Shown here: positions 5,000 to 60,955 of the stretch, one piece after another
Layout: every line of letters starts with the position of its first letter
Numbering within the stretch: position 1 is the first letter of the stretch
Source: Parabacteroides sp.
Lineage (GTDB): Bacteria; Bacteroidota; Bacteroidia; Bacteroidales; Tannerellaceae
DNA length: 64,000 bases
Reading direction: 5' to 3'
NCBI GenBank assembly: GCA_017481945.1
Contig: JAFUOJ010000011.1
Span: 166,633 to 230,632 of the forward strand
The notes under the pieces: model-generated
The model's database searches: none
Told to the model about the DNA's origin: nothing
What the model saw: the letters and a program-made list of their open reading frames with translations, nothing else
Made by a program: the position numbers and the translations under genes

Positions 5000-5070
5000 G
5001 TCCCATTTTTTCTCGCTCAAGTCCTATTTTTTCTGGGACGGGAGCCATTAATTAAAAACACACGTCCCAT
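5000..5070. repeat. Array F: four units on a 21-22 bp lattice
   Basis: Units start at 5000 (GTCCCATTTTTT), 5021 (GTCCTATTTTTT), 5042 (GAGCCATTAATT) and 5064 (GTCCCATTAAAC). A GGGAC at 5035-5039 is the inverse of the GTCCC head of the first unit. The array fills the gap between the stop codon of the DUF2461 gene (last unit abuts it) and the sppA start. It is the weakest of the seven arrays: the heads are conserved but the third unit is diverged, and T-rich composition helps the match. Confidence 0.5.
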
Positions 5071-5744
5071 TAAACGCGCCCCAAGTATTCGTCTACAGTA
5101 TAATTCAGAAAACGGTTGAATGGATACAGTAATTTAAAATCTTCAACGACTTTATCCAGCCAATCGGGAGTAAAAAAATATTCATCCGGCTTATAAGAAG
5201 CTACACAAAAGTCCTTATGACGAAGTATTTCTCCATATTCAAAATCAGAAGGATAACCAACTGGCATACGTTTCAATACCTCCCCCTCCATCACTGGATA
5301 AGTCTTCTTAAATTGGGGATTCTCAAGAATTTCCACCAACTCCTCAATATTCTCATAAATATCCTTACGAAGCATTTTTAACAAGACAGGAGGAGGACAC
5401 CAAACTCCACCCGAAAGCATACAACCACCCGGCTCTAAATGAATATAATAACCCCCGCGTTCACTACCTCTTCCACCACAAGAGGCTATATAAGCAGCGA
5501 AGTGGCGTTTATACGGTGTTTTGTCTGGAGAAAAACGGATGTCTCGATAAATACGGAAAAGGCAATCTTTTGCGTCTAAGCCTGCAACTTCCGGATCAAA
5601 CAAGCCGATTCGGTCAATCAACAGTTGAACATTTTCTATAAAGTTTTTACGTAAGACATCGTATCGACTCTTATTAGCTTGAAACCACTCTCTATTATTA
5701 TTTACCTGTAGTTCCTTTAAAAACTGAATTATCTCTGCATTCAT
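5070..5744 (-). CDS. DUF2461 domain protein
   Basis: 224 residues, normal family length. It shows the DUF2461/TIGR02453 landmarks: LNNREWFQANKSRYD-like start (here VNNNREWFQANKSRYD), FRIYRDIRFSPDKTPYKRHF and GGYYIHLEPGGCMLSGGVWCPPP. The family is widespread and its biochemical role is not established. The start has a clear GAGGA ribosome site about 8 bases upstream, unusual strength for this genome. It has its own likely promoter (minus-strand TATGTTTG at 5774-5781). Confidence 0.88.
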   Translation of the reverse strand: MNAEIIQFLKELQVNNNREWFQANKSRYDVLRKNFIENVQLLIDRIGLFDPEVAGLDAKDCLFRIYRDIRFSPDKTPYKRHFAAYIASCGGRGSERGGYYIHLEPGGCMLSGGVWCPPPVLLKMLRKDIYENIEELVEILENPQFKKTYPVMEGEVLKRMPVGYPSDFEYGEILRHKDFCVASYKPDEYFFTPDWLDKVVEDFKLLYPFNRFLNYTVDEYLGRV

Positions 5745-5773
5745 AAAGTCCTCATTATTATAAAGAATTTATG

Positions 5774-5781
5774 CAAACATA
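5774..5781 (-). promoter_or_regulatory. Predicted -7 box for the DUF2461 gene
   Basis: The minus strand reads TATGTTTG, matching TAnnTTTG, about 30 bases ahead of the start codon at 5744. Confidence 0.4.
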
Positions 5782-5864
5782 ATCATCATTTTTCAAATAA
5801 CAGTTCAATCCCAATACATTCTTTCACTTTAACAACAAAACGACCTTCCTTCCGGCTCTCACGC

Positions 5865-6635
5865 TCATTGTTCCTTATTTTTCAGTCCTAAAGTATCCGC
5901 CTGTAAAACATTTCCTTGACGCTGTTTTTCTTGTTCTCTTTTCTTTTTCATCTGTGCCTGCATTTGCTCACGTAAAAGTCGCTTTTCAGCAGGCATTTCC
6001 GGTAATTGATTAACCAATTCACGCATTTTTTCAACAGGGATTGTCATCTTTTTCCCATCAGGAGCCAACATGACTATCTCATCTGCACTACGGAAAAAGG
6101 CATCTTCACAAACAGCTTCCAAAAACGGACGATAGTTATATAAATTCTCTTGTGACTTTTCTGTCTTCAGATAAGCTTTTAAATAGGCATACTTACTAAA
6201 GATCGTCTTTTGTAATCTAACTTCGTCTTCAAATAGACTGGGATCTAAATCCCAATAGTGCCGATTAATTTCATATAGAAAGATCAATTGTTTAGGGTCT
6301 GCCTTCCAAGCAGCATAATACAGTTTCTCAGCCTCATTCCAACGTCCGTCACGTTGTAAAACATCCCCTCGAAATGTAGTCAACATATTGACGAGAAATG
6401 GCTTCGGTTGCATATTCAATTCGGCTTGATCCAACAGTTCAAATGCTCGCTTCCGGTCATACGTTTTCCCTATTGCAGCCCCATATAACAATGCAGTCTC
6501 TATGTCTGTAGAGTCTATCTCATAAGCCTTAGCCAATAAATCAACAGCGTCAAAAGCATGACCGGACATATAACGAGAGGCTCCCGCATATTTTAAGTTT
6601 AAGAAGGAAATTACTAAACAGTAACAAGAAAGCAA
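5865..6635 (-). CDS. TPR-repeat ORF, probably an N-terminally damaged gene or the out-of-frame tail of the M56 gene
   Basis: 256 codons from a TTG directly after an in-frame TAG; the first ATG (residue 23) falls inside what already looks like a TPR helix (LKYAGASRYMSGHAFDAVDLLAKAYEIDS), so neither start looks natural. The body holds about three TPR-like helix pairs and ends in a charged Q/K/E-rich tail. The 5' 86 bases overlap the end of the M56 ORF in another frame; shifting one base near the A-run at about 6592 would join the M56 reading frame to this one after its last membrane segment. Either the two were fused by a deletion and are now out of frame, or a single protein has been frameshifted. 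Function unknown. Confidence 0.55.
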   Translation of the reverse strand: MLSCYCLVISFLNLKYAGASRYMSGHAFDAVDLLAKAYEIDSTDIETALLYGAAIGKTYDRKRAFELLDQAELNMQPKPFLVNMLTTFRGDVLQRDGRWNEAEKLYYAAWKADPKQLIFLYEINRHYWDLDPSLFEDEVRLQKTIFSKYAYLKAYLKTEKSQENLYNYRPFLEAVCEDAFFRSADEIVMLAPDGKKMTIPVEKMRELVNQLPEMPAEKRLLREQMQAQMKKKREQEKQRQGNVLQADTLGLKNKEQ

Positions 6636-7481
6636 CTATCGGTATGAAGACCAAATACTTCGTTCTTCCGATTCCCCGTGTACGTTTCTTATTCATCATC
6701 AGAATCCGATTCTTCAAATGCAACATATTGAAGTTATTGGATAAAGCAGCTATTGATTTATCGGTGTGGGCCAACCCTAACAAATGATATTGATAACTTC
6801 TACTATCATATCCTGACTTCAACACCTTATCATCTGCCAAATACTCTAAATTATGGCGGACTTCACGCTTCAGCAACCAAGCAAACGGATTCACCCAACA
6901 GGCTATACAAACTAACTCGCTTAACATGACATCAATGGAATACCATTGATTGACATGCGTGCACTCATGCGTTAAAATCTCATCTATTTCCTTCTCGGAA
7001 TGACTCTCTACATGTAAGAACACTAAGCGGAAAAAAGAAAAGGGTCCAGCCGGATCACTTAATAAATGTACACGTACATTTCGGACATAAGCAACTTCTG
7101 ATTTATAGGCCAACCCAAGATACTACCCAACTGGACAAAGAATCTAAGAAGCAGTATGAACACACCGCCCCAATACAGATAAGAGATACCGGAAAGGAAA
7201 AGCTCCTGCCAGTTTACTCCGGTAGCACTACTTTCTGAAACGGGGGTTACTTCCGGCAGAATAGCCGAATACATCTGAATCACCTCCGTCATTGGCTCCT
7301 GTTCCCGAATCCAATCTTGAATATCCAAAAACGGATATATCACTGATACTCCGAAGAACACCAGTAAGATGGTACGACGCAACTTGAAAAAGGTATCCTT
7401 ATAAAAGAACAACCGATAGAAAGCGTAGAGGAGTACAAGAGCCATATTTACCTTCAGAAAGTAGGCAAATTCCGGTATCAT
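6550..7481 (-). pseudogene. BlaR1/MecR1-like M56 metallopeptidase, frameshifted
   Basis: Two overlapping frames together give one M56 sensor peptidase. The first (start ATG at 7481) has membrane segments and ends prematurely at 7059 after ILGWPINQKLL. The second resumes at about 7113 with AYKSEVAYVRNVRVH, then the zinc motif HECTH, WVNPFAWLLKREVRHNLEYLADD, and a last membrane segment KYLVFIPIVAFLLLF. Adding one G to the GGG run at about 7114-7117 would restore a continuous ILGLAYKSEV. The frame then ends at 6550 soon after the last membrane segment, where it overlaps the TPR ORF. In intact systems this family senses a signal and cleaves the BlaI repressor. Two frame breaks within about 550 bases argue for decay, although a sequencing error in the G run cannot be excluded. 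Confidence 0.75.
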
Positions 7482-7499
7482 AATATCTCTGTATTAAAA

Positions 7500-7862
7500 T
7501 TATTCCTGTCCCTTTTCAATCATGTCAATGATTTCTTTCAACTCGTCAGCCGAAATAGACTGTTCTTTAGCGAAGAAAGAAACCATTTCCTTGTATGAAT
7601 TAGCAAAATAGTTATTTACCACACTACCCATGAAGAAACGTTTGTACTCTTCGATTGGGATAATCGGTGTGTACTCATACGTATTCCCATAACGTTTTGC
7701 TTTTACATACTTCTTACGTTCTAGGTTTTTCACAACAGAGGCCAACGTAGTATAAGGCGGTTTAGGATTCTCATACTCAGCCAATACATCTTTAATGAAA
7801 CACGGAGCAAGCTTCCAAATGCGGCGCATTGCTTCTTCTTCTTGTCTAGTCAATCTTTCCAT
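7500..7862 (-). CDS. BlaI/MecI/CopY-family transcriptional repressor
   Basis: 120 residues from the ATG at 7860-7862 (MERLTRQEEEAMRRIW); an ATG three codons earlier is also possible, and the longer leader has no family support. The winged-helix DNA-binding part (YTTLASVVKNLERKKYVKAKRYGNTYEYTP) and C-terminal dimer helix (ELKEIIDMIEKG) are intact. The family is dimeric and represses its own operon, classically blaI-blaR1, until an M56 peptidase cuts it. Here the peptidase gene, 18 bases downstream, is broken, so the repressor may be permanently active or answer another protease. Confidence 0.9.
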   Translation of the reverse strand: MERLTRQEEEAMRRIWKLAPCFIKDVLAEYENPKPPYTTLASVVKNLERKKYVKAKRYGNTYEYTPIIPIEEYKRFFMGSVVNNYFANSYKEMVSFFAKEQSISADELKEIIDMIEKGQE

Positions 7863-8010
7863 TTTTATCATTTTAATTTTATGATTACGGTGCGAATATG
7901 CGAAATAACCGTAAATATCCAAAGAATAGTCTGTTAAATTCTATCAAAAAAGTATACTGTTTTAAAACATATATTTCTTTCTTGCTCTGTCTCATTTTGT
8001 TTCATCCTTC

Positions 8011-8095
8011 GAAAGTTACCGCTTTCTAAGGGCGAAAGCGGTAACTTTCGGGTCATGAAAGCGGTAAGTTTCGTCACCCGAAAGCGGTAACTTTC
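8011..8095. repeat. Array A: four units on an exact 23 bp lattice
   Basis: Cores at 8011-8026 (GAAAGTTACCGCTTTC, the inverse of the others), 8034-8049 and 8080-8095 (GAAAGCGGTAACTTTC) and 8057-8072 (one base different). Each core is itself an inverted repeat, GAAAG...CTTTC, around a 6 bp centre. Starts are 23 bp apart with 7 bp spacers; two spacers are nearly inverse of each other (GGGTCAT and ATGACTC). A degenerate fifth unit may follow at 8103. The array lies in the 356 bp divergent gap between blaI and kdgK, upstream of the kdgK promoter. Otherwise I see only A/T-rich sequence in this gap. Confidence 0.85.
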
Positions 8096-8181
8096 ATGAC
8101 TCGAAACAAAACTTTTCCTTTAATTTGTACCGAGAACCCCGATGTTTTGCAAAACAAAAGGCTTATTTAAAAATAAACCTT

Positions 8182-8189
8182 TATTTTTG
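8182..8189 (+). promoter_or_regulatory. Predicted -7 box for the kdgK-eda-uxaC operon
   Basis: TATTTTTG matches TAnnTTTG, 30 bases ahead of the kdgK start. Array A ends 87 bases upstream of it. Confidence 0.5.
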
Positions 8190-8218
8190 TAGCCTAAAAT
8201 ATATTATAAACCATTGAT

Positions 8219-9262
8219 ATGGAGAAAAAAGTAATAACCTTTGGAGAAATCATGCTTAGACTGGCTACACCAGACTATCTCCGTTTTTGTCAAAGTGATA
8301 AATTGAATGCTACCTTTGGTGGTGGCGAAGCAAACGTAGCTGTATCACTGGCTAATTATGGTATTGCAACAGAGTTTGTAACCCGTTTGCCGAAAAACGA
8401 CATTGCACGTGCTTGTGTAATGGATTTACGTAAATATGGTGTAGGTACAAACCACATCGTTTATGGGGGCGACCGTTTAGGTATTTATTTCTTAGAAACA
8501 GGTGCTGTAGCACGTGCCAGCAAGGTGGTTTACGACCGTGCTCATTCCGCAATCTCTGAAATTCAGCCGGGAATGGTGAATTGGGAAGAGGTATTCAAAG
8601 ACGCTTCTTGGTTCCACTGGACAGGTATCACACCTGCTATCTCACAAGGAGCTGCTGACGCTTGCTTGGAAGCCATTCAAGTAGCCAACCGCATGGGTAT
8701 CCCTGTCTCTTGTGACTTAAACTACCGCAAGAACTTATGGAAATATGGAAAGACAGCTTCTGAAATCATGCCGGAGCTGGTAGCCGGTTGCGACGTAATC
8801 TTAGGAAACGAGGAAGACGCAGAAAAGGTATTCGGTATCAAACCGGAGGGATTCGATGTTACTGCAACCAATGGTGAAGTAAACGCAGCTGAGTTCGAAT
8901 CAGTTTGTACACAGTTGATGGCTAAATTCCCACGTGCAAAGAAGGTAATCATTACGCTACGTGGCGCAATCAATGCAAACCACAACACTTGGGGCGGTGT
9001 TCTATATGCAGACGGTAAGCTCTACCAGTCTCGTCGTTACGACATTACTCACATTGTAGACCGTGTAGGTGGCGGTGACTCTTTCATGGGTGGCTTAATC
9101 TATGGTTTATTGACTTATACAACAGACGACCAGAAAGCGCTTGACTTCGCAGTCGCTGCTTCTTGCTTGAAACACACGATCTACGGTGACTACAATCAAG
9201 TAACAGTAGAAGAGGTTGAAAAGCTAATGAGCGGAGACGCTTCCGGACGAGTTTCAAGATAA
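8219..9262 (+). CDS. kdgK: 2-keto-3-deoxygluconate kinase (PfkB family)
   Basis: 347 residues. PfkB/ribokinase fold with the substrate-side motif GGGEANVAVSLANYG near the N-terminus and the C-terminal anion-hole motif DRVGGGDSFMGG, whose Asp287 is the expected catalytic base. It phosphorylates 2-keto-3-deoxygluconate to KDPG in the cytoplasm. The kdgK call rather than another PfkB sugar kinase rests on the directly following KDPG aldolase gene (30 bp gap) and uronate isomerase gene, which together form a hexuronate degradation unit. Confidence 0.92.
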   Translation: MEKKVITFGEIMLRLATPDYLRFCQSDKLNATFGGGEANVAVSLANYGIATEFVTRLPKNDIARACVMDLRKYGVGTNHIVYGGDRLGIYFLETGAVARASKVVYDRAHSAISEIQPGMVNWEEVFKDASWFHWTGITPAISQGAADACLEAIQVANRMGIPVSCDLNYRKNLWKYGKTASEIMPELVAGCDVILGNEEDAEKVFGIKPEGFDVTATNGEVNAAEFESVCTQLMAKFPRAKKVIITLRGAINANHNTWGGVLYADGKLYQSRRYDITHIVDRVGGGDSFMGGLIYGLLTYTTDDQKALDFAVAASCLKHTIYGDYNQVTVEEVEKLMSGDASGRVSR

Positions 9263-9292
9263 TCACAATCATACAAATTCATTATTCTTAGC

Positions 9293-9961
9293 ATGGCAAG
9301 ATTCAATAAATTACAGGTACTGGACGCTATCATTAGCACAGGCATGGTTCCTGTATACTATAATAAAGATGTAGAAACAGCTAAACAAGTTGTAAAGGCT
9401 TGTTACGAAGGCGGTGTTCGTGCGTTCGAATTCACAAACCGCGGTGACTTTGCTCATGAGGTATTCGCTGAGTTGAATAAATTCGCAGCTAAAGAATGTC
9501 CGGAATTGGTATTAGGCGTAGGTTCTATTGTAGACGCAGGAACTGCCTCTTTATATCTGCAATTGGGAGCTAACTTCATCGTAGGCCCGTTGTTCAATCC
9601 GGAGATTGCAAAAGTTTGTAACCGCCGTTTAGTTCCTTACACACCGGGTTGCGGCTCTGTTTCTGAAATCGGCTTCGCACAAGAAGTTGGTTGCGACCTT
9701 TGCAAGATCTTCCCGGCAGGCAACGTAGGAGGTCCTTCATTCGTAAAGAACATGAAAGCTCCAATGCCTTGGTCTATGATCATGGCTACCGGTGCTGTTG
9801 AACCGACTGAAGAAAACCTATCAGCTTGGTTCAAGGCTGGCGTTACTTGCGTAGGTATGGGTTCTAAACTCTTCCCGAAAGAGATGATCGCAGAAGGCAA
9901 CTGGGAGGGTATCTCTGCTCTTTGCCGCAACGCGTTGGATATTATCAAGAAGTATCGTTAA
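9293..9961 (+). CDS. eda: KDPG/KHG aldolase
   Basis: 222 residues, class I aldolase of the Entner-Doudoroff and hexuronate routes, splitting KDPG into pyruvate and glyceraldehyde-3-phosphate. Visible landmarks: Glu46 in AFEFTNRG, the substrate-binding [23 protein letters not shown], and the Schiff-base lysine Lys138 in [14 protein letters not shown]. Second gene of the kdgK-eda-uxaC operon; 20 bp before uxaC. Confidence 0.94.
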
Positions 9962-9981
9962 CAGCATAAACCACTAATAGT

Positions 9982-11385
9982 ATGAAAACATTCATGGATT
10001 CTAATTTCCTGCTTTTGTCAGACACAGCTCAGCAGCTGTATCACGAACATGCAGCGAAAATGCCGATCATTGACTATCACTGTCACCTAATTCCTCAGCA
10101 GATTGCAGACAACTATCAGTTTGCAGACCTGACTGAGATCTGGTTAGGCGGTGACCACTATAAATGGCGTGCCATGCGTGCGAATGGTGTCCCCGAAGAA
10201 TACATCACAGGCGATAAACCTGCCTATGAGAAGTTTGAGAAGTGGGCTGACACGCTTCAACACGCTATGCGCAACCCGTTGTATCACTGGACACACTTGG
10301 AACTAAGCCGTATCTTCGGTGTAGACAAGGTGTTGAATCCGGCTACTGCACGCGAGATCTACGACGAATGTACTGCCAAGTTGCAGACACCGGAGTTCCG
10401 TGCGCAGGCCATCATGGAACGTATGAACGTAGAGGTTGTTTGTACGACTGACGACCCCATCGACGATTTGAAGTATCACGCTGCTATCCGTCAAGGCAGT
10501 CTGAAGACGAAAGTCCTTCCGACTTGGCGTCCGGACAAGGCTATGGCAATCGACAATACAGAGGCTTACAACGAATATCTGACCAAGTTGGAAGCTGCTG
10601 CCGATATGTCTATCCTTAGCTACAAAGACTTAGTGGCTGCTTTGCAGAAACGTCATGACTACTTCGCTGCCGAAGGGTGCGTCTTGTCTGACCACGGCTT
10701 GACAGCCTTCATCTATGTGCCTTATACAGACGCTGAGATCGAAGCTATCTTCATGAAAGCCCGTATGAACAAGGAACTGACCGCTGAAGAGGTCGACAAG
10801 TTCCGCTCTGCGATCCTACATGACTTAGCAGTTATGAACGCACATAAAGGATGGGTACAGCAGTTCCACATCGGTGCGACTCGTAACAACAACGCCCGCA
10901 TGTTTAAGAAGTTAGGTGCTGACACCGGCTATGACGCTATCGGCGACTTCGAGGTGGCTGCTCCTATGTCACGCTTCTTAAGCCGTTTGGACGAAGAGGG
11001 CGAGTTGGCTAAATCCATCTTCTACAACTTGAACCCGCGTGATAACGAGTTGATTGTGACTACAATCTACAGTTTCAACGACGGTACGGTTCCGGGCAAA
11101 ATGCAGTACGGTTCCGGCTGGTGGTTCTTGGATCAGATTCACGGTATGGAGCGACAGTTGAACGCTTTGTCAGACTTAGGTCTGCTGAGCCGTTTCGTCG
11201 GTATGCTGACGGACTCTCGTAGCTTCTTGTCTTATCCGCGCCATGAATATTTCCGCCGTATCCTTTGCAACCTCTTAGGTCGCGAGGTGGAAGACGGTTT
11301 GCTTCCGGCTTCCGAACTTCCATTCATCGGCAAGATGGTCGAGGACATTAGCTACAATAACGCTAAGCAATATTTCGGCTTTTAA
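9982..11385 (+). CDS. uxaC: Uronate (glucuronate/galacturonate) isomerase
   Basis: 467 residues, full family length. N-terminal metal-binding DYHCHL motif of the amidohydrolase fold, CTTDDPIDDLKYH in the middle, and NARMFKKLGADTGYD and YGSGWWFLDQ toward the end. Converts D-glucuronate to D-fructuronate and D-galacturonate to D-tagaturonate. It supplies the first step to the two upstream genes, but the fructuronate reductase and mannonate dehydratase expected between are not in this window. A hairpin terminator follows at 11475. Confidence 0.96.
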   Translation: MKTFMDSNFLLLSDTAQQLYHEHAAKMPIIDYHCHLIPQQIADNYQFADLTEIWLGGDHYKWRAMRANGVPEEYITGDKPAYEKFEKWADTLQHAMRNPLYHWTHLELSRIFGVDKVLNPATAREIYDECTAKLQTPEFRAQAIMERMNVEVVCTTDDPIDDLKYHAAIRQGSLKTKVLPTWRPDKAMAIDNTEAYNEYLTKLEAAADMSILSYKDLVAALQKRHDYFAAEGCVLSDHGLTAFIYVPYTDAEIEAIFMKARMNKELTAEEVDKFRSAILHDLAVMNAHKGWVQQFHIGATRNNNARMFKKLGADTGYDAIGDFEVAAPMSRFLSRLDEEGELAKSIFYNLNPRDNELIVTTIYSFNDGTVPGKMQYGSGWWFLDQIHGMERQLNALSDLGLLSRFVGMLTDSRSFLSYPRHEYFRRILCNLLGREVEDGLLPASELPFIGKMVEDISYNNAKQYFGF

Positions 11386-11474
11386 TTTGTTTTATGGCAT
11401 AATAATTAAACAATGTGTACGACGTGATGTCGTTTAGAATTTCATTTTATTTCAATTAAAAACGTAATTTATAA

Positions 11475-11511
11475 GAAAGGTTCCCCTTGTGATAAGTCGA
11501 ACCTTTCACTT
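11475..11511 (+). terminator. Rho-independent terminator of the kdgK-eda-uxaC operon
   Basis: Stem GAAAGGTTC (11475-11483) with GAACCTTTC (11499-11507), 15-base loop, followed after A-C by TTTTT. About 90 bases after the uxaC stop. Confidence 0.7.
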
Positions 11512-11550
11512 TTTATATCCCTCTCTTAATTTAAAATCAACAAATAATAC

Positions 11551-11558
11551 TATCTTTG
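11551..11558 (+). promoter_or_regulatory. Predicted -7 box for the HU-like gene
   Basis: TATCTTTG matches TAnnTTTG. If used, transcription begins near 11565 and the transcript carries array B within a leader of about 220 bases before the ATG at 11786. Confidence 0.5.
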
Positions 11559-11607
11559 TTCGGGTTGTAAGAGAATGATTCGAGGCGGTCTTTTTCTTCC
11601 TTAAAAC

Positions 11608-11713
11608 GACATACCGATGTCCCCCCTGACGACATACCGATGTCGGCGGGTGCTTCATACCGATGTCACCGGGGTCGACATACCGATGTCGGCAGCAGCG
11701 ACATACCGATGTC
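11608..11713. repeat. Array B: five units on an exact 23 bp lattice
   Basis: Cores GACATACCGATGTC at 11608-11621, 11631-11644, 11677-11690 and 11700-11713, and a version with two changed bases at 11654-11667. Every start is 23 bp from the last. The core is an inverted repeat, GACAT...ATGTC around ACCG; the 9 bp spacers are GC-rich and unrelated to each other. In RNA each core could form a tiny 5 bp hairpin. The array occupies the 400 bp gap between uxaC and the HU-like gene and, by the predicted promoter, lies in the HU-like 5' leader. Confidence 0.88.
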
Positions 11714-11785
11714 GTTTTTAGGTACAAAAGCGTCAGAATCCGGCTCTCACATCCATTATTGTTAAACCTATTAAAATTTTTTCTC

Positions 11786-12280
11786 ATGGCTATTTCTTAT
11801 AAGTTAGTTCAGAAGGGAAATCCCTCCAAGAAGGAGGATCCGAAGAAGTGGTACGCTGTACCTAAGAGTTCTACCGCACAGACTGGCAAGCAGATGACCA
11901 AGGCTGCCACCGAAAACACGACCGTTGCTCCTATTGAATTAGAAGCGGCTCTTGATTTATTGGCCAAATATGTACCCAAGCAGATTGTGCAGGGGCATAC
12001 GGTACATATCCCCGGGGTCGGTTATTTACGTCTATCGTTCAAGAGCAAAGGGGTGGAAAACATTGAGGACTTCAACGCCGGCGAAATGATCTACGACGCA
12101 AAACTGGTTTTCAAACCGGACGAAGAGTTGCGCAGTGCTATCCTTGAGAATCTGCAGTACGAGGAGGGCGGTGTCCTTGCCGAAGGCATTGAGTATGCCA
12201 ACCGGAAGTCCTACCTGCAGCTCGTCAATCCGGGTGGCTCAGGCAGCACCGGTGAGGACGACGCGCCGGATGAGCTTTAA
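11786..12280 (+). CDS. HU-like (Bacteroidales HU-HIG type) DNA-binding protein
   Basis: 164 residues. I start at the ATG at 11786 (MAISYKLVQKGNPSKKEDPKKWYAVPKSS), the standard N-terminus of this Bacteroidales family; the upstream in-frame ATG at 11663 lies inside repeat array B and codes for no recognisable protein. The IHF/HU-like domain covers about residues 1-125 (NTTVAPIELEAALDLLAKYVPKQIVQG then HIPGVGYLRLSF). The last 25 residues are a Gly/Ser/acidic tail ending GEDDAPDEL. Family members bind DNA without known sequence specificity. A strong bidirectional terminator follows. Confidence 0.9.
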   Translation: MAISYKLVQKGNPSKKEDPKKWYAVPKSSTAQTGKQMTKAATENTTVAPIELEAALDLLAKYVPKQIVQGHTVHIPGVGYLRLSFKSKGVENIEDFNAGEMIYDAKLVFKPDEELRSAILENLQYEEGGVLAEGIEYANRKSYLQLVNPGGSGSTGEDDAPDEL

Positions 12281-12284
12281 TTAA

Positions 12285-12315
12285 AAAGGCTGGGATTCAA
12301 GGGATCCCAGCCTTT
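12285..12315. terminator. Bidirectional rho-independent terminator
   Basis: 12 bp perfect stem AAAGGCTGGGAT (12285-12296) with ATCCCAGCCTTT (12304-12315), 7-base loop, A-run before and T-run after. Sits between the converging HU-like and porW/sprE genes. Confidence 0.88.
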
Positions 12316-12324
12316 TTTGTATGC

Positions 12325-15753: not shown

Positions 15754-15823
15754 GAAATCATCTGCCACATGCCCATCCCTACGTAGGAATAACCTTGTTT
15801 ATCCCCTTGTGCATATTTTTATT

Positions 15824-16627: not shown

Positions 16628-16660
16628 TCTCTATCTCTTCTTAATCTCTATTTTTTTCGG

Positions 16661-16724
16661 TCGGCAGGGAAATAGTATTCCCTCGGCAGGAAACAAGAAT
16701 TTCCTCGGCAGGGAATTTTCCTCC
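16661..16724. repeat. Array C: three units on an exact 22 bp lattice
   Basis: Units start at 16661, 16683 and 16705, each opening TCGGCAGG and containing an inverted repeat: GGGAA...TTCCC, GGAAA...TTTCC and GGGAA...TTCC. It occupies the 100 bp gap between the stop of the small membrane protein and the start of the permease. The string TCGGCAGGAAA of the second unit recurs, inverted, in array D at 47508-47519. Confidence 0.75.
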
Positions 16725-16728
16725 AATG

Positions 16729-17154: not shown

Positions 17155-17159
17155 GATAC

Positions 17160-19451: not shown

Positions 19452-20345
19452 TTATTTTGAGCCTAACAAAGTCATAACCTCCTCTTCCGACAGCTTGGCT
19501 ATCTTGGCAATTGAAGAAATGTCCATCCCCTGTTCACGCATATTTTGAATCATAAGACGAATACCCTCGAATTTACCTTCCGCTCGTCCTTTGGCTTCCC
19601 CCTCTTCGAGTCCTTCTGCCTTACCTTCTTCAAGCCCTTGGTGATAAAAGGTGTACATCGTATTGTTATAATCCCTATAGTGCTTCAATGCCTGGTCGTA
19701 TTCCCAACGTTCTTCCTCACTCAAAGTAGCCACGTTTGCAACCTCCAGGATCTTCCCGAAAACGGATTTCTCTACATAAAAAGGATAATTCTCAAATGTT
19801 TCCATATTCTTCAATAAATAAATCCAACGATCAAAATCGGTCTGACACTCCTCCACCGTCTTGTTAAAATGGGGCAAACTCAAATAAATCTGACGCATTT
19901 TGTTGTTCACCACCTCTCCCGTTTCACGGTCTGCCAATACAACATCCGTACGAAACTTCGTCAACGACGCTATCTTAAAATTCAAAAAGAAGATGCCATA
20001 TACCGGACAAATCTCATATCTCCAAGCGGTACCTTTCAGCCCCTGCTCGTCTATCATTCGGCATAGATAATACAACGCACGATCCAGGAAATAACCCTGA
20101 TACTGGTTTTGTATCTCTACGATGAACTGTGTGCCGTCCTCATCCTCACATAGAATGTCGTAAATCACCACCTTATGATTCAAAGACCTCGGAACCTTCT
20201 CCTTATTCATCAGGTTGATACGCTTCACATGGCGCTCATCTCCCAAAATCACTCGTATCAGTTCCGTCAGCAACTCTTTACTCACTTCCCTACCGAACAG
20301 ATGTTTAAACCCCACGTCGGTAAAGGGATTCATATACTTTCCCAT
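19452..20345 (-). CDS. Rpn/PD-(D/E)XK nuclease family transposase-like protein
   Basis: 297 residues. N-terminus MNPFTDVGFKHLFG and the PD-(D/E)XK-type core IYDILCEDEDGTQFIVEIQ with Asp63, Glu77 and Gln79 identify the Rpn/YhgA-like family (TIGR01784). Such proteins are recombination-promoting nucleases, common in many copies in Bacteroidales. The C-terminal third holds the family's low-complexity Gly-Glu-Ala/Lys repeat (EEGKAEGLEEGEAKGRAEGK), prone to length change. It has its own predicted promoter and abuts the symmetric repeat element E upstream. Confidence 0.9.
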   Translation of the reverse strand: MGKYMNPFTDVGFKHLFGREVSKELLTELIRVILGDERHVKRINLMNKEKVPRSLNHKVVIYDILCEDEDGTQFIVEIQNQYQGYFLDRALYYLCRMIDEQGLKGTAWRYEICPVYGIFFLNFKIASLTKFRTDVVLADRETGEVVNNKMRQIYLSLPHFNKTVEECQTDFDRWIYLLKNMETFENYPFYVEKSVFGKILEVANVATLSEEERWEYDQALKHYRDYNNTMYTFYHQGLEEGKAEGLEEGEAKGRAEGKFEGIRLMIQNMREQGMDISSIAKIAKLSEEEVMTLLGSK

Positions 20346-20393: not shown

Positions 20394-20477
20394 AGAGTTT
20401 ATTCAGAACATCATCGCCATTTCAGAGGGAATTTTCCAGTCCGGACAAAGTTTCAGGGAGAGGCTTAGTGGTCGTGA

Positions 20478-20683
20478 CTTCCCAACGCGGACGGTCGCAA
20501 CCTTCGCGACCGGTAAGGTATTACTTCTTATTCCGTACGGAATATACTCGTATTCCACTCGGAATAATTTACAATTCCACTCGGAATATAATTTTATTCC
20601 GTACGGAATATTTCTTTATTCCACGTGGAATTATAAAAAAGACCTTACCAGTCGCGGAAGTAGCGACCGGTAAGGTTGGGAAG
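20478..20683. repeat. Element E: mirror-symmetric 206 bp element with five palindromes on a 22 bp lattice and 42 bp inverted arms
   Basis: Five 14 bp cores ATTCC-nnnn-GGAAT at 20530, 20552, 20574, 20596 and 20618, exactly 22 bp apart; the centres are GTAC, ACTC, ACTC, GTAC and ACGT. Flanking arms 20478-20519 and 20642-20683 are inverted copies of each other (33 of 42 positions match by hand alignment). The midpoint of the arms and the midpoint of the middle core coincide at 20580.5, so the whole element is symmetric. The arms also hold GACCGGTAAGGT at 20508 and again at 20665. It fills most of the 470 bp gap between the divergent Rpn-type and protease genes. No coding sequence is credible in it. 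Layout resembles a MITE with an internal minisatellite. Confidence 0.88.
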
Positions 20684-20799
20684 GGAAGAAGCTATGGGGT
20701 AGCTGGAGATAACAAAAAAGGGGATTGGGATAAATCCTTTCTCAACATATTTATCTTTCAAATTCTGTCTGAAATAGAAGAATAATCTCTTTTAAATCG

Positions 20800-28477: not shown

Positions 28478-28479
28478 AA

Positions 28480-47421: not shown

Positions 47422-47520
47422 TCCCATAGGAACGAATTTAATTTCCCCAGTGACTAAATACGCACTCACTGGGCAGGAAATAATTAATCACTGGGCTACA
47501 AAATCAAATTTCCTGCCGAG
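47422..47520. repeat. Array D: units on a 22 bp lattice, related to array C
   Basis: In the 689 bp gap between ugd and the next plus-strand gene. TCACTGGG occurs at 47466 and 47488, its inverse CCCAGTGA at 47446; GGGCAGGAAAT (47471-47481) has its near-inverse ATTTCCTGCC at 47508-47517. Units begin at 47444, 47466, 47488 and 47510, possibly 47422. ATTTCCTGCCGA at 47508-47519 is the inverse of a string in array C. The rest of the gap holds the ugd promoter and hairpin, the next gene's promoter, and A/T-rich sequence with nothing else I can support. Confidence 0.7.
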
Positions 47521-48947: not shown

Positions 48948-49004
48948 ATATTCGACAGAGAAAAGTTGAGAGATACATAAATAAAAATCAAACAATAGAA
49001 AGAT

Positions 49005-50924: not shown

Positions 50925-50926
50925 CA

Positions 50927-51400: not shown

Positions 51401-51411
51401 ATACAAGAACA

Positions 51412-53004: not shown

Positions 53005-53007
53005 ATT

Positions 53008-53535: not shown

Positions 53536-53539
53536 GGAT

Positions 53540-54088: not shown

Positions 54089-54184
54089 CATAGACTTAAA
54101 TATATTTTGTCGATATTTCTTCTGTTTTTGTCGAGAGAAAATTTATTTTTTTCTAATCTAATTGTAAACATATTTATTGTTCTA

Positions 54185-54192
54185 TAGTTTTG
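54185..54192 (+). promoter_or_regulatory. Predicted -7 box for the efflux operon
   Basis: TAGTTTTG matches TAnnTTTG, 48 bases ahead of the TolC-like start. Confidence 0.45.
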
Positions 54193-54240
54193 CTTTCATA
54201 ATAAAGACAAAAGATTATTTTGTTGTAAAACGAAAATATT

Positions 54241-55596: not shown

Positions 55597-55637
55597 ACGT
55601 AAACAGAAACAAGACCACTAATGAATTTATATTCACT

Positions 55638-55690
55638 CTCTTTTTATTTGGTCCCTGCTTTTCGTGTTTCGGCAGGGACCTTAAAAAGAG
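55638..55690 (+). other. Long intercistronic hairpin between the TolC-like and adaptor genes
   Basis: Outer stem CTCTTTTTA/TAAAAAGAG and inner stem GGTCCCTGC/GCAGGGACC with a 13-base loop. It is not followed by a T-run on either strand, so it looks like an RNA-processing or stability element, not a terminator. Confidence 0.6.
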
Positions 55691-55722
55691 ATTTACATAA
55701 GAAATAAAAAACAAATAAAGAT

Positions 55723-56958
55723 ATGAACAAAAAGAAACTAATCATCGGTGTTATCAGCGTACTGGTCATCGTTGGAGGTATTTGGTTTTTCACCAATAAA
55801 CCTTCAAAAGGAGGCTTTAAGCTTGAGACTAGCAAAGTAAGCAGGAACTCTATTTCGAACACAGTCACTGCTACCGGAACTGTTGAACCTGTTACAGAAG
55901 TACAAGTAGGTACACAAGTATCAGGCATTATCGACAAACTGTATGCCGACTACAATGATGTGGTAAAAGCAGGACAATTGATTGCAGAGATGGATAAGGT
56001 TAATTTAAAAGCTGAACTTGCCTCTGCTGAAGCTCAATTAGCAAGTAGCAAAACAGAATATGAATATCAACAAAAGAATTACGCTCGCAGTAAGGTTCTT
56101 TATGAAAAGAAATTAATAAGTGATTCTGAATATGAAACTGCCACCTATAATTATGAAAAGGCAAAAGCTGCCTACGACCAGAATAAAGCGTCTATGGTAA
56201 AAGTTAAACGGAATCTCGAATATGCAACTATTACGAGTCCTATCAATGGAGTCATTATCAATCGTGCAGTAGAAGAAGGTCAAACAGTTGCTGCCGGCTT
56301 TGAAACCCCAACTTTATTCACAATTGCAGCAGACTTAACTAAAATGCAAGTTATTGCCGACGTAGATGAAGCTGATATAGGTAATGTATTAGAAGGGCAG
56401 CGTGTTACTTTTACAGTTGATGCTTATCCAAATGATGTATTCGAGGGGAAAGTTATGCAAATTCGCTTAGGAGACAGTGAAAGTAGCAGCAGTACCTCTT
56501 CATCTACCTCTACAGTTGTTACCTATGAAGTGGTTATTTCTGCAGATAATCCTGATTTGAAATTAAAACCGCGTTTGACAGCAAATATAACCATATTTAC
56601 TTTAGAACGTGACAATGTACTGACAGTCCCAACAAAAGCTTTACGCTTTGTACCTGAACCAGACATGCTAATGCAATTAGGATATACAATAGCAGAGCCG
56701 GCTATGACTCCAACTCCTAATGGGAAACGCGTTATATGGACTATCAATGGGAAAGAATTAAAACCCAAAACAGTGACTGTTGGTTCCACAAGCGGTAACC
56801 AGATTGAGGTTATAGAAGGTGTAAGCGAAGGAGAAGTATTAGCTGTTGATTTAGAATCAACCATAGCTTCACCTATGACCTCTAATGAAGAGACAGAAAG
56901 AAGTCCGTTTATGCCTGGCCCTCCGGGAAGCAACAAAAATAAAAAAGGAGCAAAGTAA
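55723..56958 (+). CDS. Periplasmic adaptor (MacA/HlyD-like)
   Basis: 411 residues. N-terminal membrane anchor (about 5-24), barrel-sandwich halves TVTATGTVEPVTEVQVGTQVSG and YATITSPINGVIINRAVEEGQTV around a coiled-coil hairpin (about 95-150), then beta-barrel VIADVDEADIGNVLEGQRVTF. Ser/Thr-rich loop near residue 245. Links inner-membrane MacB to the TolC-like duct. Confidence 0.93.
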   Translation: MNKKKLIIGVISVLVIVGGIWFFTNKPSKGGFKLETSKVSRNSISNTVTATGTVEPVTEVQVGTQVSGIIDKLYADYNDVVKAGQLIAEMDKVNLKAELASAEAQLASSKTEYEYQQKNYARSKVLYEKKLISDSEYETATYNYEKAKAAYDQNKASMVKVKRNLEYATITSPINGVIINRAVEEGQTVAAGFETPTLFTIAADLTKMQVIADVDEADIGNVLEGQRVTFTVDAYPNDVFEGKVMQIRLGDSESSSSTSSSTSTVVTYEVVISADNPDLKLKPRLTANITIFTLERDNVLTVPTKALRFVPEPDMLMQLGYTIAEPAMTPTPNGKRVIWTINGKELKPKTVTVGSTSGNQIEVIEGVSEGEVLAVDLESTIASPMTSNEETERSPFMPGPPGSNKNKKGAK

Positions 56959-56962
56959 ATCT

Positions 56963-56991
56963 GTAAAAGTAGGCGTCAGACCTACTTTTAC
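56963..56991 (+). other. Intercistronic hairpin between adaptor and ATPase genes
   Basis: 11 bp perfect stem GTAAAAGTAGG (56963-56973) with CCTACTTTTAC (56981-56991), 7-base loop, no T-run following. It lies 5 bases after the adaptor stop. Confidence 0.6.
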
Positions 56992-57007
56992 ATCAAAAAT
57001 GACAATC

Positions 57008-57748
57008 ATGAAAGAGATTATCAAATTAGAGAATATCAAACGTGATTTCAAAGTTGGAGACGAAATTGTCCATGCTTTACGTGGCGTATCTTTCACAATT
57101 CATGAGGGAGAGTTTGTCACGATCATGGGTACATCCGGCTCTGGGAAAAGTACTTTGCTGAATACATTAGGTTGTTTAGATACACCTACCAGCGGAGAGT
57201 ATTATCTTGACGGGGTATCTGTACGAACAATGGGAAAGAATGCGCGTGCAACTTTACGTAATCGAAAAATTGGTTTTGTCTTTCAAAATTACAATTTGTT
57301 ACCCAAAACAACCGCGGTAGAGAACGTCGAATTACCACTTATGTACAATTCTTCGTATAGTGCTACTGCACGTTATCAGAAAGCCGTTGAAGCATTAATT
57401 GCCGTTGGATTGGGAGACCGTCTAATGCACAAAAGCAATCAAATGTCCGGAGGACAAATGCAACGTGTTGCCATTGCCCGAGCTTTAGTAAACGATCCTG
57501 CCGTTATTTTAGCAGATGAAGCAACCGGAAACTTGGACACTCGCACTTCTTTCGAAATCTTAGTCTTATTTCAGAAGCTGCATGCCGAAGGGCGTACCAT
57601 TATATTCGTAACCCACAATCCGGAAATTGCTCAATACAGTAGCCGGAACATCACATTACGAGATGGACATGTAACCTCTGACACAGTAAATACCGATATT
57701 CTAAATGCAGCAGAAGCCTTAGCGAAGTTGCCTAAGAATGACGATTAA
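57008..57748 (+). CDS. MacB-type ABC transporter ATP-binding protein
   Basis: 246 residues from the ATG at 57008 (MKEIIKLENIKRDFKVGDE); an ATG at 56999 is also possible, and the much longer frame would run through the hairpin and overlap the adaptor gene. Walker A GTSGSGKST, signature MSGGQMQRVAIARAL, Walker B VILADEATGNLD. Drives export together with the permease gene 27 bases downstream. Confidence 0.95.
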   Translation: MKEIIKLENIKRDFKVGDEIVHALRGVSFTIHEGEFVTIMGTSGSGKSTLLNTLGCLDTPTSGEYYLDGVSVRTMGKNARATLRNRKIGFVFQNYNLLPKTTAVENVELPLMYNSSYSATARYQKAVEALIAVGLGDRLMHKSNQMSGGQMQRVAIARALVNDPAVILADEATGNLDTRTSFEILVLFQKLHAEGRTIIFVTHNPEIAQYSSRNITLRDGHVTSDTVNTDILNAAEALAKLPKNDD

Positions 57749-57774
57749 CAAGAGATTCTTAATAACAATTTACA

Positions 57775-58995
57775 ATGAACGGAACGAACCTAATAAAAAT
57801 AGCCCTTCGGGCACTCGCAAATAATAAACTACGCGGTTTTTTAACAATGCTGGGTATCATTATTGGTGTTGCCTCTGTTATTACCATGCTTGCTATCGGA
57901 CAAGGGTCTAAGCGAAGTATCCAGGCACAAATCAGTGAGATGGGTTCTAACATGATTATGATTCATCCGGGAGCTGACATGCGAGGAGGTGTCCGACAAG
58001 ACGCTTCTGCTATGGAAACGCTAAAGCTGGAAGATTATCAAAACATAGTAGACGAAACTCGATATGTATCTGCTGTTTCTCCTTCCGTCAACAGTAGTGG
58101 ACAAGCCATTTACGGAGCAAATAACGCACCAACTACAGTCTATGGTATCAGCCCCGACTATTTAGAGATTCGTCGATACAAGGTTGAGGATGGAGACATG
58201 TTTACTGAACAAGATATTCAGACAGCAGCAAAAGTCTGTGTTGTCGGTAAAACCGTTGTCGATAATCTATTCCCTGATGGGAGTAGCCCTGTAGGGAAAG
58301 TTATACGCTTCCAGAAGTTACCTTTCCGTATTGTAGGTGTATTAGAAAGTAAAGGATATAACAGCATGGGAATGGACCAGGACGATTTAATCTTAGCTCC
58401 ATACACAACTATTCAAAAGAAAGTTCTGGCCATTACCCATCTGCAAGGCATTAACTGTTCAGCTCTCAAAGAAGAATATACTGAACAGGCAATCGACGAG
58501 ATTACAGAAATACTGCGCCGCAACCATAAGTTGAGAGATATGGATGCTGATGATTTTACAATTCGTAGTCAACAGGAGTTAAGTACGATGTTGACAAGTA
58601 CGACAGATATGATGACTGTGCTGTTGGCGGCTGTGGCTGGTATTTCGCTCCTCGTCGGAGGTATCGGGATTATGAATATCATGTATGTTTCAGTAACGGA
58701 GCGTACTCGTGAAATCGGTCTTCGTATGAGTATCGGAGCCAAAGGGATTGATATTTTAGCACAGTTCCTAATTGAATCCATCCTCATCAGTGTAACCGGA
58801 GGGTTAATCGGAGTCTTCTTAGGAGTCGGTGCTGCGCTAATTGTCAATGGAGTTGCCCACTTCCCTATCTATATTCAGCCGTGGAGTGTAATTCTTTCTT
58901 TTGCTGTATGTACCATCACAGGCGTATTCTTTGGCTGGTATCCTGCAAAGAAAGCAGCTCAACTTGATCCGATTGAAGCCATCCGTTACGAATAG
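57775..58995 (+). CDS. MacB-type ABC transporter permease
   Basis: 406 residues. N-terminal membrane segment (LTMLGIIIGVASVITMLAIGQGSKR), periplasmic MacB_PCD domain about 50-245, three C-terminal segments with VGGIGIMNIMYVSVTERTREIGLRMSIGA (in parts: GGIGIMNIMYVSV, TREIGLRMSIGA). Mechanotransmitter-type exporter; cargo unknown (peptides, lipids or drugs are known for relatives). Confidence 0.95.
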   Translation: MNGTNLIKIALRALANNKLRGFLTMLGIIIGVASVITMLAIGQGSKRSIQAQISEMGSNMIMIHPGADMRGGVRQDASAMETLKLEDYQNIVDETRYVSAVSPSVNSSGQAIYGANNAPTTVYGISPDYLEIRRYKVEDGDMFTEQDIQTAAKVCVVGKTVVDNLFPDGSSPVGKVIRFQKLPFRIVGVLESKGYNSMGMDQDDLILAPYTTIQKKVLAITHLQGINCSALKEEYTEQAIDEITEILRRNHKLRDMDADDFTIRSQQELSTMLTSTTDMMTVLLAAVAGISLLVGGIGIMNIMYVSVTERTREIGLRMSIGAKGIDILAQFLIESILISVTGGLIGVFLGVGAALIVNGVAHFPIYIQPWSVILSFAVCTITGVFFGWYPAKKAAQLDPIEAIRYE

Positions 58996-59035
58996 GAGTG
59001 CTGATATATTTGTTTACATAAAAGTAAAAGATTAA

Positions 59036-60097
59036 ATGACAACGCCAACTACAACATTGCCACCTCTTAAGGGGATGGGAAGTATTATACATATTGTTGC
59101 ATGGGGAATCCTTTTCGGTCTTCCTTTCTTTTTTACGGGAAAGGAACCGCAAGAGATGAACGTTTATAATTATATCCGTTCAGTTACGGTTCCTATTTCA
59201 TTTATGTTTGTCTTTTATGTAAACTTTTTCTTATTGGTAGACCGTTACTTATTTTCTAAGTACACCTGGAAGTTTTTCCTCAGTAACGTGATATTAATTG
59301 CAGCCGCAATATTGTGTGTCCACCTACTCATGGACATACTTCCTCCACCAGCCAACTGGCACAATCCCCCACACCATCGACGAGAGATACAAGAAAGCAT
59401 TGGTTTCTTTTTGGTAAACGCGACTATCTATATGTTAGTCGCTGGGCTCAGTGTTGCTATCAAAATGACTTGGGTATGGTTTCAGACAGAAACAACACGC
59501 CGCGAGTTGGAAAAGAGCCGCGCCGAAGCTGAGCTACAAAACCTTAAAAGCCAGCTTAATCCACACTTCTTATTTAATACTCTCAATAACATTTACAGCC
59601 TGATTTCTTTCAGTCCCGAACGGGCACAAGAAGCGGTTCATGATTTGAGCCGTCTGCTTCGCTATGTTCTCTACGAAAGCAGTCAGCCAGTTGTTCCCTT
59701 AGAAAGAGAACTTTCTTTCATTCAGAACTATGTTGAATTAATGCGTATTCGTCTTCCTGAACATGTAAAAGTATCTACTCACATATCAGCAAACAATCAA
59801 GAGACACCGATTGCTCCTCTCCTGTTCATCTCGCTTATTGAAAATGCGTTTAAACATGGAGTGAGCCACAGCGAGCCTTCCTTTATCGATTTAACTATAC
59901 GGCAAGAGGGAGAACGGATTGTATGCGAGATTCATAACAGTTACTTCCCTAAAAATAGCAATCAAGACAAAAGTGGTTCTGGTATAGGGCTACAAAACCT
60001 CAGCCGTCGTCTGGAACTCCTTTATCCGGCACACCATATATTCACTTACGGGCAGAAAGGAGACGAGTATATCTGTCTGCTGGAGTTGCAATCCTAA
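59036..60097 (+). CDS. LytS-type sensor histidine kinase
   Basis: 353 residues, four membrane segments in the first 150 residues, then the His_kinase motif LKSQLNPHFLFNTLNNIYSL (His in NPHFLFN) and the ATPase SLIENAFKHGVSHSEP and GSGIGLQNLSRRLELLY. No large extracellular sensor domain. Follows the permease by 40 bases and precedes its response regulator, so it probably controls this exporter. Confidence 0.93.
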   Translation: MTTPTTTLPPLKGMGSIIHIVAWGILFGLPFFFTGKEPQEMNVYNYIRSVTVPISFMFVFYVNFFLLVDRYLFSKYTWKFFLSNVILIAAAILCVHLLMDILPPPANWHNPPHHRREIQESIGFFLVNATIYMLVAGLSVAIKMTWVWFQTETTRRELEKSRAEAELQNLKSQLNPHFLFNTLNNIYSLISFSPERAQEAVHDLSRLLRYVLYESSQPVVPLERELSFIQNYVELMRIRLPEHVKVSTHISANNQETPIAPLLFISLIENAFKHGVSHSEPSFIDLTIRQEGERIVCEIHNSYFPKNSNQDKSGSGIGLQNLSRRLELLYPAHHIFTYGQKGDEYICLLELQS

Positions 60098-60140
60098 AGA
60101 TTTGTTGTATTTTTGTTCAATCTATTTATACAACCGACTT

Positions 60141-60860
60141 ATGACATTAACATGTGCAATCATAGATGATGAACCTCTGGCGATTAGCCTGTTAGAAAGT
60201 TATGTAAATAAAACTCCATTCTTACAGTTAGTGGGGAAATTTAACAGTGCACTTAATGCCCTCTCCGAATTAAGTACGCAGCCAGTAGACCTGCTTTTCC
60301 TTGACATTCAAATGCCAGAGTTAAATGGTCTGGAGTTCTCACGCATTCTAAAAGCAGATACCCGTATTATCTTTACCACTGCCTTTGAACAATATGCACT
60401 CGACAGCTACAAAGTAAATGCGCTTGACTATCTATTAAAGCCTATCAGCTATCCCGATTTCCTAAAAGCGGCGAACAAAGCACTCCAATGGTACGAATTG
60501 GTTAAAGGGAACAAAGGGAACGAAAATAACACGGAATCAATATTCATCAAAACTGAATATAAATTGGTTCAAGTAGAACTGCGTAAAATTCTCTATATCG
60601 AAGGGCTGAAAGATTATGTCAAGATATTTATCGAGGATGAACCTCATCCCATCCTTTCGCTAATGAGTATAAAGTCATTAGAAGAGTTACTACCTTCCAA
60701 TCGTTTCATCCGTGTACATCGTTCTTTCATTGTACAACCGGAAAAGATTAAAGTTATCGAGAGAAATCGAATTGTTTTTGGTAAAGAATACATTCCTATC
60801 TCCGACAACTACAAACAAAAATTCATGGAGTTTTTATCTCAACGTTCCTTATTGCCCTAA
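60141..60860 (+). CDS. LytTR response regulator
   Basis: 239 residues from the ATG at 60141 (MTLTCAIIDDEPLAIS); the 13-codon longer frame overlaps a possible internal promoter TATTTTTG at 60109-60116 and lacks support. Receiver domain with Asp55 in LLFLDIQMPELNG; LytTR DNA-binding domain from about 140 (FIKTEYKLVQVELRKILYIEGLKDYVKI in part; RFIRVHRSFIV). The two proteins form the usual Bacteroidetes LytS/LytTR pair. Confidence 0.93.
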   Translation: MTLTCAIIDDEPLAISLLESYVNKTPFLQLVGKFNSALNALSELSTQPVDLLFLDIQMPELNGLEFSRILKADTRIIFTTAFEQYALDSYKVNALDYLLKPISYPDFLKAANKALQWYELVKGNKGNENNTESIFIKTEYKLVQVELRKILYIEGLKDYVKIFIEDEPHPILSLMSIKSLEELLPSNRFIRVHRSFIVQPEKIKVIERNRIVFGKEYIPISDNYKQKFMEFLSQRSLLP

Positions 60861-60867
60861 AAAGGAG

Positions 60868-60955
60868 TCCGCATCCGTCTCTCATTCGATCCGCACCCCT
60901 TTTTTCTTCGCTGCGCATCCATTTCATTTTTTATGCGCAGCAAAAAATAAATATC
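60868..60955. repeat. Array G: four units on an exact 22 bp lattice
   Basis: Heads TCCGCATCC (60868), TCCGCACCC (60890), TGCGCATCC (60912) and TGCGCAGCA (60934). GCTGCGCAT at 60910-60918 and ATGCGCAGC at 60933-60941 form an inverted pair. Lies in the 101 bp gap between the converging response regulator and dacB genes, where it may also serve as a transcription barrier. Confidence 0.68.

Follow-up and report, generated by a model that had tools for sequence, protein, structure and literature searches.

The subject of this study is a class of intergenic arrays of short palindromes, tandemly repeated at a pitch of 22-23 bp, in a 64,000-nucleotide (nt) stretch of a gut Parabacteroides sp. genome (assembly GCA_017481945.1, contig JAFUOJ010000011.1, positions 166,633 to 230,632 of the forward strand; hereafter, the window). 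We conclude that each array is probably a group of palindromic sites on the DNA for HU-HIG proteins, which form a HU-like family of DNA-binding proteins that has expanded in Bacteroidales. Judged from sequence, this conclusion is built on the pitch, the dyad symmetry of the units, their placement, their association with HU-HIG genes, the cores shared between loci and the co-occurrence of cores with particular paralogues. As an association, the link between HU-HIG genes and the arrays is strong. An earlier note had described seven arrays in the window (A to G). Its observation is partly confirmed and largely holds, and its interpretation is partly supported.

The source genome (2.79 Mb in 45 contigs, 83% complete) was sampled as 864 kb, with an earlier subset of 464 kb. 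Judged by UxaC, its nearest relatives are Parabacteroides. The stretches were not random: the first batch consisted of contigs matched by array E queries, and the second consisted in part of contigs chosen for HU genes.

Arrays upstream of HU-HIG genes

An upstream array was called when the 300 bp before a gene scored at least 16 at lags of 20-24. In the genus, 27 of 29 distinct HU genes with a winged helix-turn-helix part (HU-wHTH) possessed an upstream 22-bp array. TetR genes had one in 2 of 29 cases (Fisher p 1e-11), and among 145 background genes 13 had one (p 1e-19). When control lags were scored in the same way, arrays were called in none of the 66 HU rows and in none of the 29 TetR genes. 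The HU genes here and in the other-family set below were best-scoring or listed matches, with no random draw. L126 was excluded because of its broken frame, L179 and L180 had no listed coordinates, and L169, which is the L223 locus, was entered once among the 29. One of the 30 TetR loci was removed because its upstream region was too short. In the background set, divergent pairs enter twice and the window HU-HIG gene itself is included. Upstream 22-bp arrays were seen at the TetR loci L195 and L206.

The placement of the arrays at HU-wHTH genes was also regular. In 16 of the 27 cases, the Bacteroidetes promoter motif TAnnTTTG ends 11-28 bp ahead of the array (1.7 expected), and the distance from array end to ATG is 35-185 bp (n = 27). 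Since the array lies mostly between the promoter motif and the ATG, a protein bound to it could block transcription.

Of four HU genes with an immunoglobulin (Ig)-like part, one had an upstream array. In genomes G007 and G015 (330 bp scored, lags 20-25; of the 31 matches listed, 18 entered the analysis, among them one with only 4 bp upstream), arrays were called at 6 of 7 HU genes of at least 185 aa, the one miss having 73 bp upstream, and at 7 of 10 shorter genes. Thus, the link extends past the winged-helix type. In other Bacteroidales families (48 loci, one removed), arrays were called at 11 of the 15 long HU genes, whereas the short class, which includes loci without a proper start, had them at 5 of 32. 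Some HU-wHTH genes of one such family (L271, L272 and L273) apparently possess two successive upstream 22-bp arrays with different cores, as judged by eye. In our alignment A2, winged-helix families matched part of 20 members (best 1e-5), and winged helices of PDB matched weakly. Many HU-HIG proteins without a winged helix (window 11786-12280; L113-L125) possess an acidic tail ending in PDEL or PEEL.

In the source genome, 17 PF18291 matches and further PF14848 matches were found. Arrays adjoin 10 of 19 tested HU genes, seven upstream and three downstream, and 5 of these 10 HU-adjacent cores recur elsewhere in the 864 kb, with two more found by eye or BLAST. Among 25 own-genome loci at 22-23 bp (24 from the lag scan described below, plus array F), 12 lie beside a HU gene or have a HU-linked core (a hand count, one of them by eye). 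In the batch not picked for HU genes, 5 of 13 loci were HU-linked.

The arrays might instead be multi-site operators of many unrelated regulators, among which HU is one group. The two TetR genes with upstream arrays are in line with this explanation, as are array B, which stands beside a BlaI/MecI-type gene, and one array between an extracytoplasmic function (ECF) sigma gene and a HU-wHTH gene. However, TetR genes do not exceed the background rate, a single pitch is kept across families, and the arrays of the source genome are not biased toward promoters: 4 of 25 lie in convergent gaps versus 35 of 269 gaps (the 4 counted by hand; of the 16 arrays found by the inverted-arm caller described below, two weak A/T-rich ones were left out of the gap-orientation count). 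We therefore regard this explanation as quite unlikely.

Pitch statistics beyond the window

The earlier note had called for a shuffled-sequence control and for the repeat pitches in the rest of the genome. In the 464 kb, exact noncoding repeats of at least 9 bases numbered 30 at distances of 21-23, versus 0.4 in shuffled sequence, and 28 at 41-46, versus 1.8. In the lag scan of noncoding DNA (864 kb, threshold 17), 25 loci were detected at lags 20-24 and 16 at lags 40-44, several of the latter being doubles of 22. No noncoding locus was detected at the control lags 15-19, 26-30, 33-37 or 48-52. In coding DNA, the corresponding numbers were 7 (20-24), 2 (40-44), 3 (15-19), 1 (26-30), 2 (33-37) and 3 (48-52). 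A caller for alternating inverted arms found 16 arrays, versus a shuffle mean of 0.3, and 2 in the eightfold larger coding DNA. The 22-23 bp peak thus exists outside the window too. A chance origin of the arrays was rejected by the shuffle and control-lag counts.

The peak was also present in other Bacteroidales: noncoding DNA at 70 uxaC loci showed a 22-bp peak (27 versus 0.6). At three of the loci, from three unrelated species, arrays with different cores lie shortly after uxaC (L048:7445-7581, L104:7413-7506 and L096:7465-7535).

Unit structure: DNA sites or RNA hairpins

The typical 22-23 bp unit comprises a linker of 6-8 bp and a dyad about 14-17 bp long, the centre of which is variable. 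The earlier note had assigned such symmetry to arrays A, B, C and E. It is present in most arrays scored, beyond those four, whereas a hairpin search in array A found none. The note's proposal that bound proteins would align on one DNA face is compatible with the pitch, as a spacing of two turns fits such proteins.

Dyad symmetry is also expected if the arrays are RNA hairpins serving as terminators or RNA-protein sites. Selected hairpins should show compensatory change in their arms. In 18 own-genome arrays, however, arm complementarity was 0.677 within units and 0.669 between units, and in 33 HU-linked rows (two being one locus) it was 0.646 within and 0.638 between. Equal complementarity within and between units is the pattern given by sites of a dimeric DNA-binding protein. 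The absence of compensatory arm change in the 22-23 bp class thus favors DNA sites over RNA hairpins, and the hairpin reading of this class was rejected. A scan of the window with Rfam at gathering scores yielded a tRNA and no other RNA family, by which known RNA families were also rejected as the identity of the arrays. In favor of hairpins, 5 of 9 loci at 41-42 bp are no more than 60 bp downstream of a stop codon, and the outer arms of L022 are compensatory (0.78 within, 0.45 between). Taken over all arrays, the hairpin explanation is highly improbable.

Arrays with a 41-bp pitch form a second class (L022:10441-10669, L026:15800-16060, L027:15222-15505 and L032:225-422), located mostly just past stop codons. 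In several of the 41-bp arrays, the dyads are of the 6-3-6 form and are separated by 26 bp. A 42-bp family, CCACCGCCTCCGATT.., was seen at two own-genome loci, L021:18033-18370 and L148:3662-4025. No partner protein of the 41-bp class was found in this analysis.

Shared cores and HU-HIG paralogues

The claims that each array has its own core and that units were copied purely locally were not supported. The array C core occurs again at C7:7485, the array E core occurs again at C11, upstream of a HU-type gene, and GAAACTNNNAGTTTC is present at nine own-genome loci. Among the 38 genus genomes searched with core patterns, GAAACTNNNAGTTTC was found at two loci in G023 and in none of 36 others. Cores that recur at several loci mark families rather than single loci. 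Whole arrays, moreover, are dispersed, as described below.

Relatives of the window HU-HIG gene were found in two genomes of other species. In G007, a relative with 69% identity has upstream CGACATCCCGATGTCG units at pitch 23, nearly the array C core; in G015, a HU-HIG gene with 55% identity has an upstream array of a 23-bp type unlike the TCACNNNNGTGAA arrays described next.

Two core families were dispersed. For the first, TCACNNNNGTGAA, the loci with arrays number 24 in G049, 9 in G017 and 8 in G016, each number including one at a HU-wHTH gene, which carries the array upstream. Such arrays also occur at 6 loci in G011 and one in G044. The reversed-pattern control for TCACNNNNGTGAA gave 0. 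G011 possesses two HU-wHTH genes whose upstream cores are related to TCACNNNNGTGAA but degenerate. G044, searched afterwards, possesses a HU-wHTH gene 64% identical to that of G011, the upstream region being lost at a contig end. The second family, ACAGCTGT, occurs at 6 loci in G041, 3 each in G019 and G007, and 2 each in G022 and G024, with none in 33 others. G041, G019, G022 and G024 possess orthologous HU-wHTH genes with the ACAGCTGT core upstream; in G007, searched afterwards, a HU-wHTH gene 67% identical to these orthologues has a like array upstream. Thus, the two dispersed core families are found in genomes with like-core HU paralogues and are nearly absent from the others, which were not surveyed one by one for the paralogue.

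Proteins that are more alike tend to have cores that are more alike (Mantel rho 0.34, p 0.0005; 0.30 for pairs below 60% identity). In 11 orthologous sets of HU loci, the units were mostly unchanged, with one clear partial loss (L223/L295); units and placement were mostly kept while other positions changed. These results suggest private pairs of protein and docking site.

Dispersed copies

From 47 dispersed loci listed in four genomes, 40 were fetched. Exactly four units at 22-22-22 were present in 32 of the 40; six had three units, and two had a stray fifth. Where both neighbors were known, 15 of 36 copies lay in convergent gaps, versus 3 of 36 other gaps at the same loci. This preference indicates that the dispersed copies are no ordinary operators, and a general promoter-operator reading of them was rejected.

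The preference for convergent gaps could also be accounted for if the arrays were selfish minisatellites resembling miniature inverted-repeat transposable elements (MITEs), moved by unrelated transposases and tolerated upstream of HU genes. In G049, 17 of 20 copies have flanks common to both sides (by eye), and 254-311 bp can be aligned among several of them. Thus, the array in G049 is carried within a longer element, and the IS5-like ends of BrickBuilt, a repeat element of Porphyromonas gingivalis (PMC4596501), lend this explanation further support. Against it, the HU-linked G049 copy (L157) has no element flanks (by eye), and for 5 of 7 G016 copies the corresponding locus of G017 also holds a copy. 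Two G049 copies, L332 and L337, occupy loci that G016 and G017 share and have no element flanks, which suggests that the array stood first at few loci and was later multiplied in a longer element, in one lineage. Own-genome loci with a common core have flanks that are not alike beyond the array (by eye). A selfish origin also leaves unexplained why arrays are present upstream of 27 of 29 HU-wHTH genes, why they follow the promoter motif and why the cores track the proteins. We therefore consider it unlikely, and keep to clusters of sites for HU-HIG proteins.

Arrays in the window

The seven arrays were tested individually in windows of 161-301 bp at lags 20-24 against 500 dinucleotide shuffles; the counts below are shuffles attaining the observed score. 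Their noncoding position and fixed pitch, as claimed before, were borne out. Support is strong for arrays B, C, D and E, far above the shuffles. Array G also passes, although its appearance differs, and A and F, with two units each, are marginal.

Array B (8010..8106; 0 of 500) consists of four CGAAAG-N6-CTTTCG-like units at pitch 23, starting at 8010, 8033, 8056 and 8079. It lies between the BlaI/MecI-type repressor gene (7500..7922, minus strand; Penicillinase_R family, PF03965) and pfkB. Array C (11606..11714; 0 of 500) has five CGACATACCGATGTCG units, one of them degenerate, at pitch 23. It is placed between a promoter-like motif, TATCTTTG (11551..11558, plus strand), which matches TAnnTTTG, and the start of a HU-HIG gene (11786..12280, plus strand), with 71 bp from array end to gene. 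The gene encodes a 164-aa protein matching PF18291 at 73.8 bits (Pfam cut-off 26.2), which has an acidic tail in place of a C-terminal winged helix (by eye); a longer mechanical open reading frame would start at 11663, within the array. Array D (16656..16715; 0 of 500) has two palindromes with GGCAGGGAAA..TTCCC at pitch 22; 2.5 copies were given by a separate repeat search. Array E (20529..20631; 0 of 500) has five ATTCCNNNNGGAAT palindromes at pitch 22, with a PDDEXK_2 (PF12784) transposase-family gene to its left (19452..20345, minus strand). Repeats of another family, resembling GCGACTTACCAGTCGC, flank array E on both sides (by eye; window 20463-20717). This dispersed family was also seen at L010, L012 and L029, and downstream of a HU-type gene at C41.

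Array A (4995..5034) has two weak units at lag 21 (score 13; 2 of 500). Array F (47456..47520; 1 of 500) has two weak GGGCAGGAAAT units at lag 22; the scored part reaches 47496, and the end was set by eye. Array G (60868..60939; 0 of 500) gives a lag-22 signal over a hairpin-like inverted repeat; by eye it is mainly one inverted repeat, 8 and 22 bp from its two convergent neighbor genes.

Compared with the earlier description, the pitch stands for B (23), D, E and G (22) and F (22), whereas A has 21 and C has 23 instead of 23 and 22. The three to five units reported for every array are present in B, C and E; A, D and F have two. No coding gene is involved in the arrays themselves, although array C adjoins the HU-HIG gene.

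Proposed model

We propose that the core sequence is particular to each HU-HIG paralogue. One array would stand next to the gene of that paralogue; at winged-helix genes it would mostly come after the promoter and before the ATG, where the bound HU-HIG protein would block transcription of that gene. Further arrays, mostly of four sites, would be scattered between genes and may serve DNA architecture, regulation or as decoys. With a spacing of 22-23 bp, two helical turns, dimers would stack on one DNA face. In one species, the array would have been multiplied inside a longer MITE-like element.

Several results weigh against this model. Arrays at HU genes below 185 aa in the first set (3 of 32) were at a background-like level. 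In the source genome, no HU link was found for 13 of the 25 loci at 22-23 bp, including B, D, L013 and loci of the AGTTTC core (the one present at nine loci), and B adjoins a regulator of another type. In control profile searches, PF18291 also matched ordinary HU genes of other bacteria, so that some matches need not be HU-HIG. G023, the other holder of the GAAACTNNNAGTTTC core, has four weak HU matches. The TCAC pattern used for TCACNNNNGTGAA also matched G015 and G052, which have a different 23-bp type. The Mantel value for the HU part (0.29) is nearly that of the winged helix, as under plain co-descent. Half-sites (165/208) and linkers (148/208) showed no clear difference in conservation among orthologues (p 0.07). 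The convergent-gap preference of the dispersed copies belongs here too.

More tentatively, and with somewhat less than even confidence, Bacteroidales may contain dozens of parallel, insulated addressing systems, in which each HU-HIG paralogue has a palindromic code of its own, autoregulates through an array of four sites and docks at further arrays scattered in the genome, code and protein co-diverging. This would be an unrecognised sequence-coded nucleoid or self-marking layer. The number of PF18291 matches per genome, 5 to 54 among 28 Parabacteroides genomes (ordinary HU also being matched), suggests that the system may be large. If the arrays are sites for HU-HIG proteins, HU, known as weakly sequence-specific, would become a family with evolvable sequence specificity, and the array ahead of a gene would offer a prediction of that paralogue's DNA code.

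Comparison with known systems

Clades of the HU superfamily are reportedly treated in a 2017 paper. Repetitive extragenic palindromic (REP) sequences and bacterial interspersed mosaic elements (BIMEs) are evenly spaced, alternating palindromes dispersed between genes, and one gene for a REP-associated tyrosine transposase (RAYT) is flanked by its repeat. The arrays resemble them in having regularly spaced, dispersed intergenic palindromes and a partner gene, but the partner here is HU-like and theirs is a Y1 transposase. Identity with REP/RAYT was rejected, as no Y1_Tnp match was found in the 83% complete genome. In MatP-matS and Noc-NBS, one nucleoid protein has scattered palindromic sites that are not confined to promoters. 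In contrast, here many paralogues have private cores, in clusters of about four sites, and the cores differ between species. Clustered regularly interspaced short palindromic repeats (CRISPR) share short palindromic repeats and an even pitch, whereas the arrays here consist of dyads of about 14-17 bp with linkers of 6-8 bp. No cas family was present among the first 25 of 90 matched families listed (44 proteins, nearly all immediate array neighbors).

The closest known element is BrickBuilt, a MITE minisatellite, which consists of intergenic 23-nt tandem units and is reported from P. gingivalis and P. gulae (PMC4596501). One P. gingivalis strain has 19 copies, with 1 to 22.8 strain-variable units per copy; the element has a leader, a tail and IS5-like terminal repeats, and some copies lack leader and tail. 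The same source notes 22-, 23- and 41-nt repeats in P. gingivalis, the PgRS elements being 41-nt repeats, and counts five DNA/RNA-binding neighbors of BrickBuilt; the parts covered do not connect the element with HU. BrickBuilt_14 (84 nt) lies between PGN_0871 (minus strand, a membrane-protein gene) and PGN_0872 (plus strand, PF00216 DNA-binding), upstream of both (PMC4596501). The published 23-nt consensus contains a 6+6 bp dyad, TCTCRTRTGAGA, spanning the unit junction. The link to the P. gingivalis class suggested by the earlier note gains support from this dyad and from the location of BrickBuilt_14.

A literature search, mainly of open-access papers, found no paper joining HU-HIG proteins to such arrays. 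The HU-HIG partner is new, and the array class is wider than thought. The link would supply a partner protein and a testable function for the 22-, 23- and perhaps 41-nt repeats of P. gingivalis, to which no function had been assigned. The arrays share with BrickBuilt the intergenic 22-23 nt tandem units and the dyad within the unit. The BrickBuilt leader and tail have no counterpart at own-genome loci of the same core (by eye), although 17 of the 20 G049 copies share flanks. Whereas BrickBuilt varies from 1 to 22.8 units, the dispersed copies described here mostly have exactly four.

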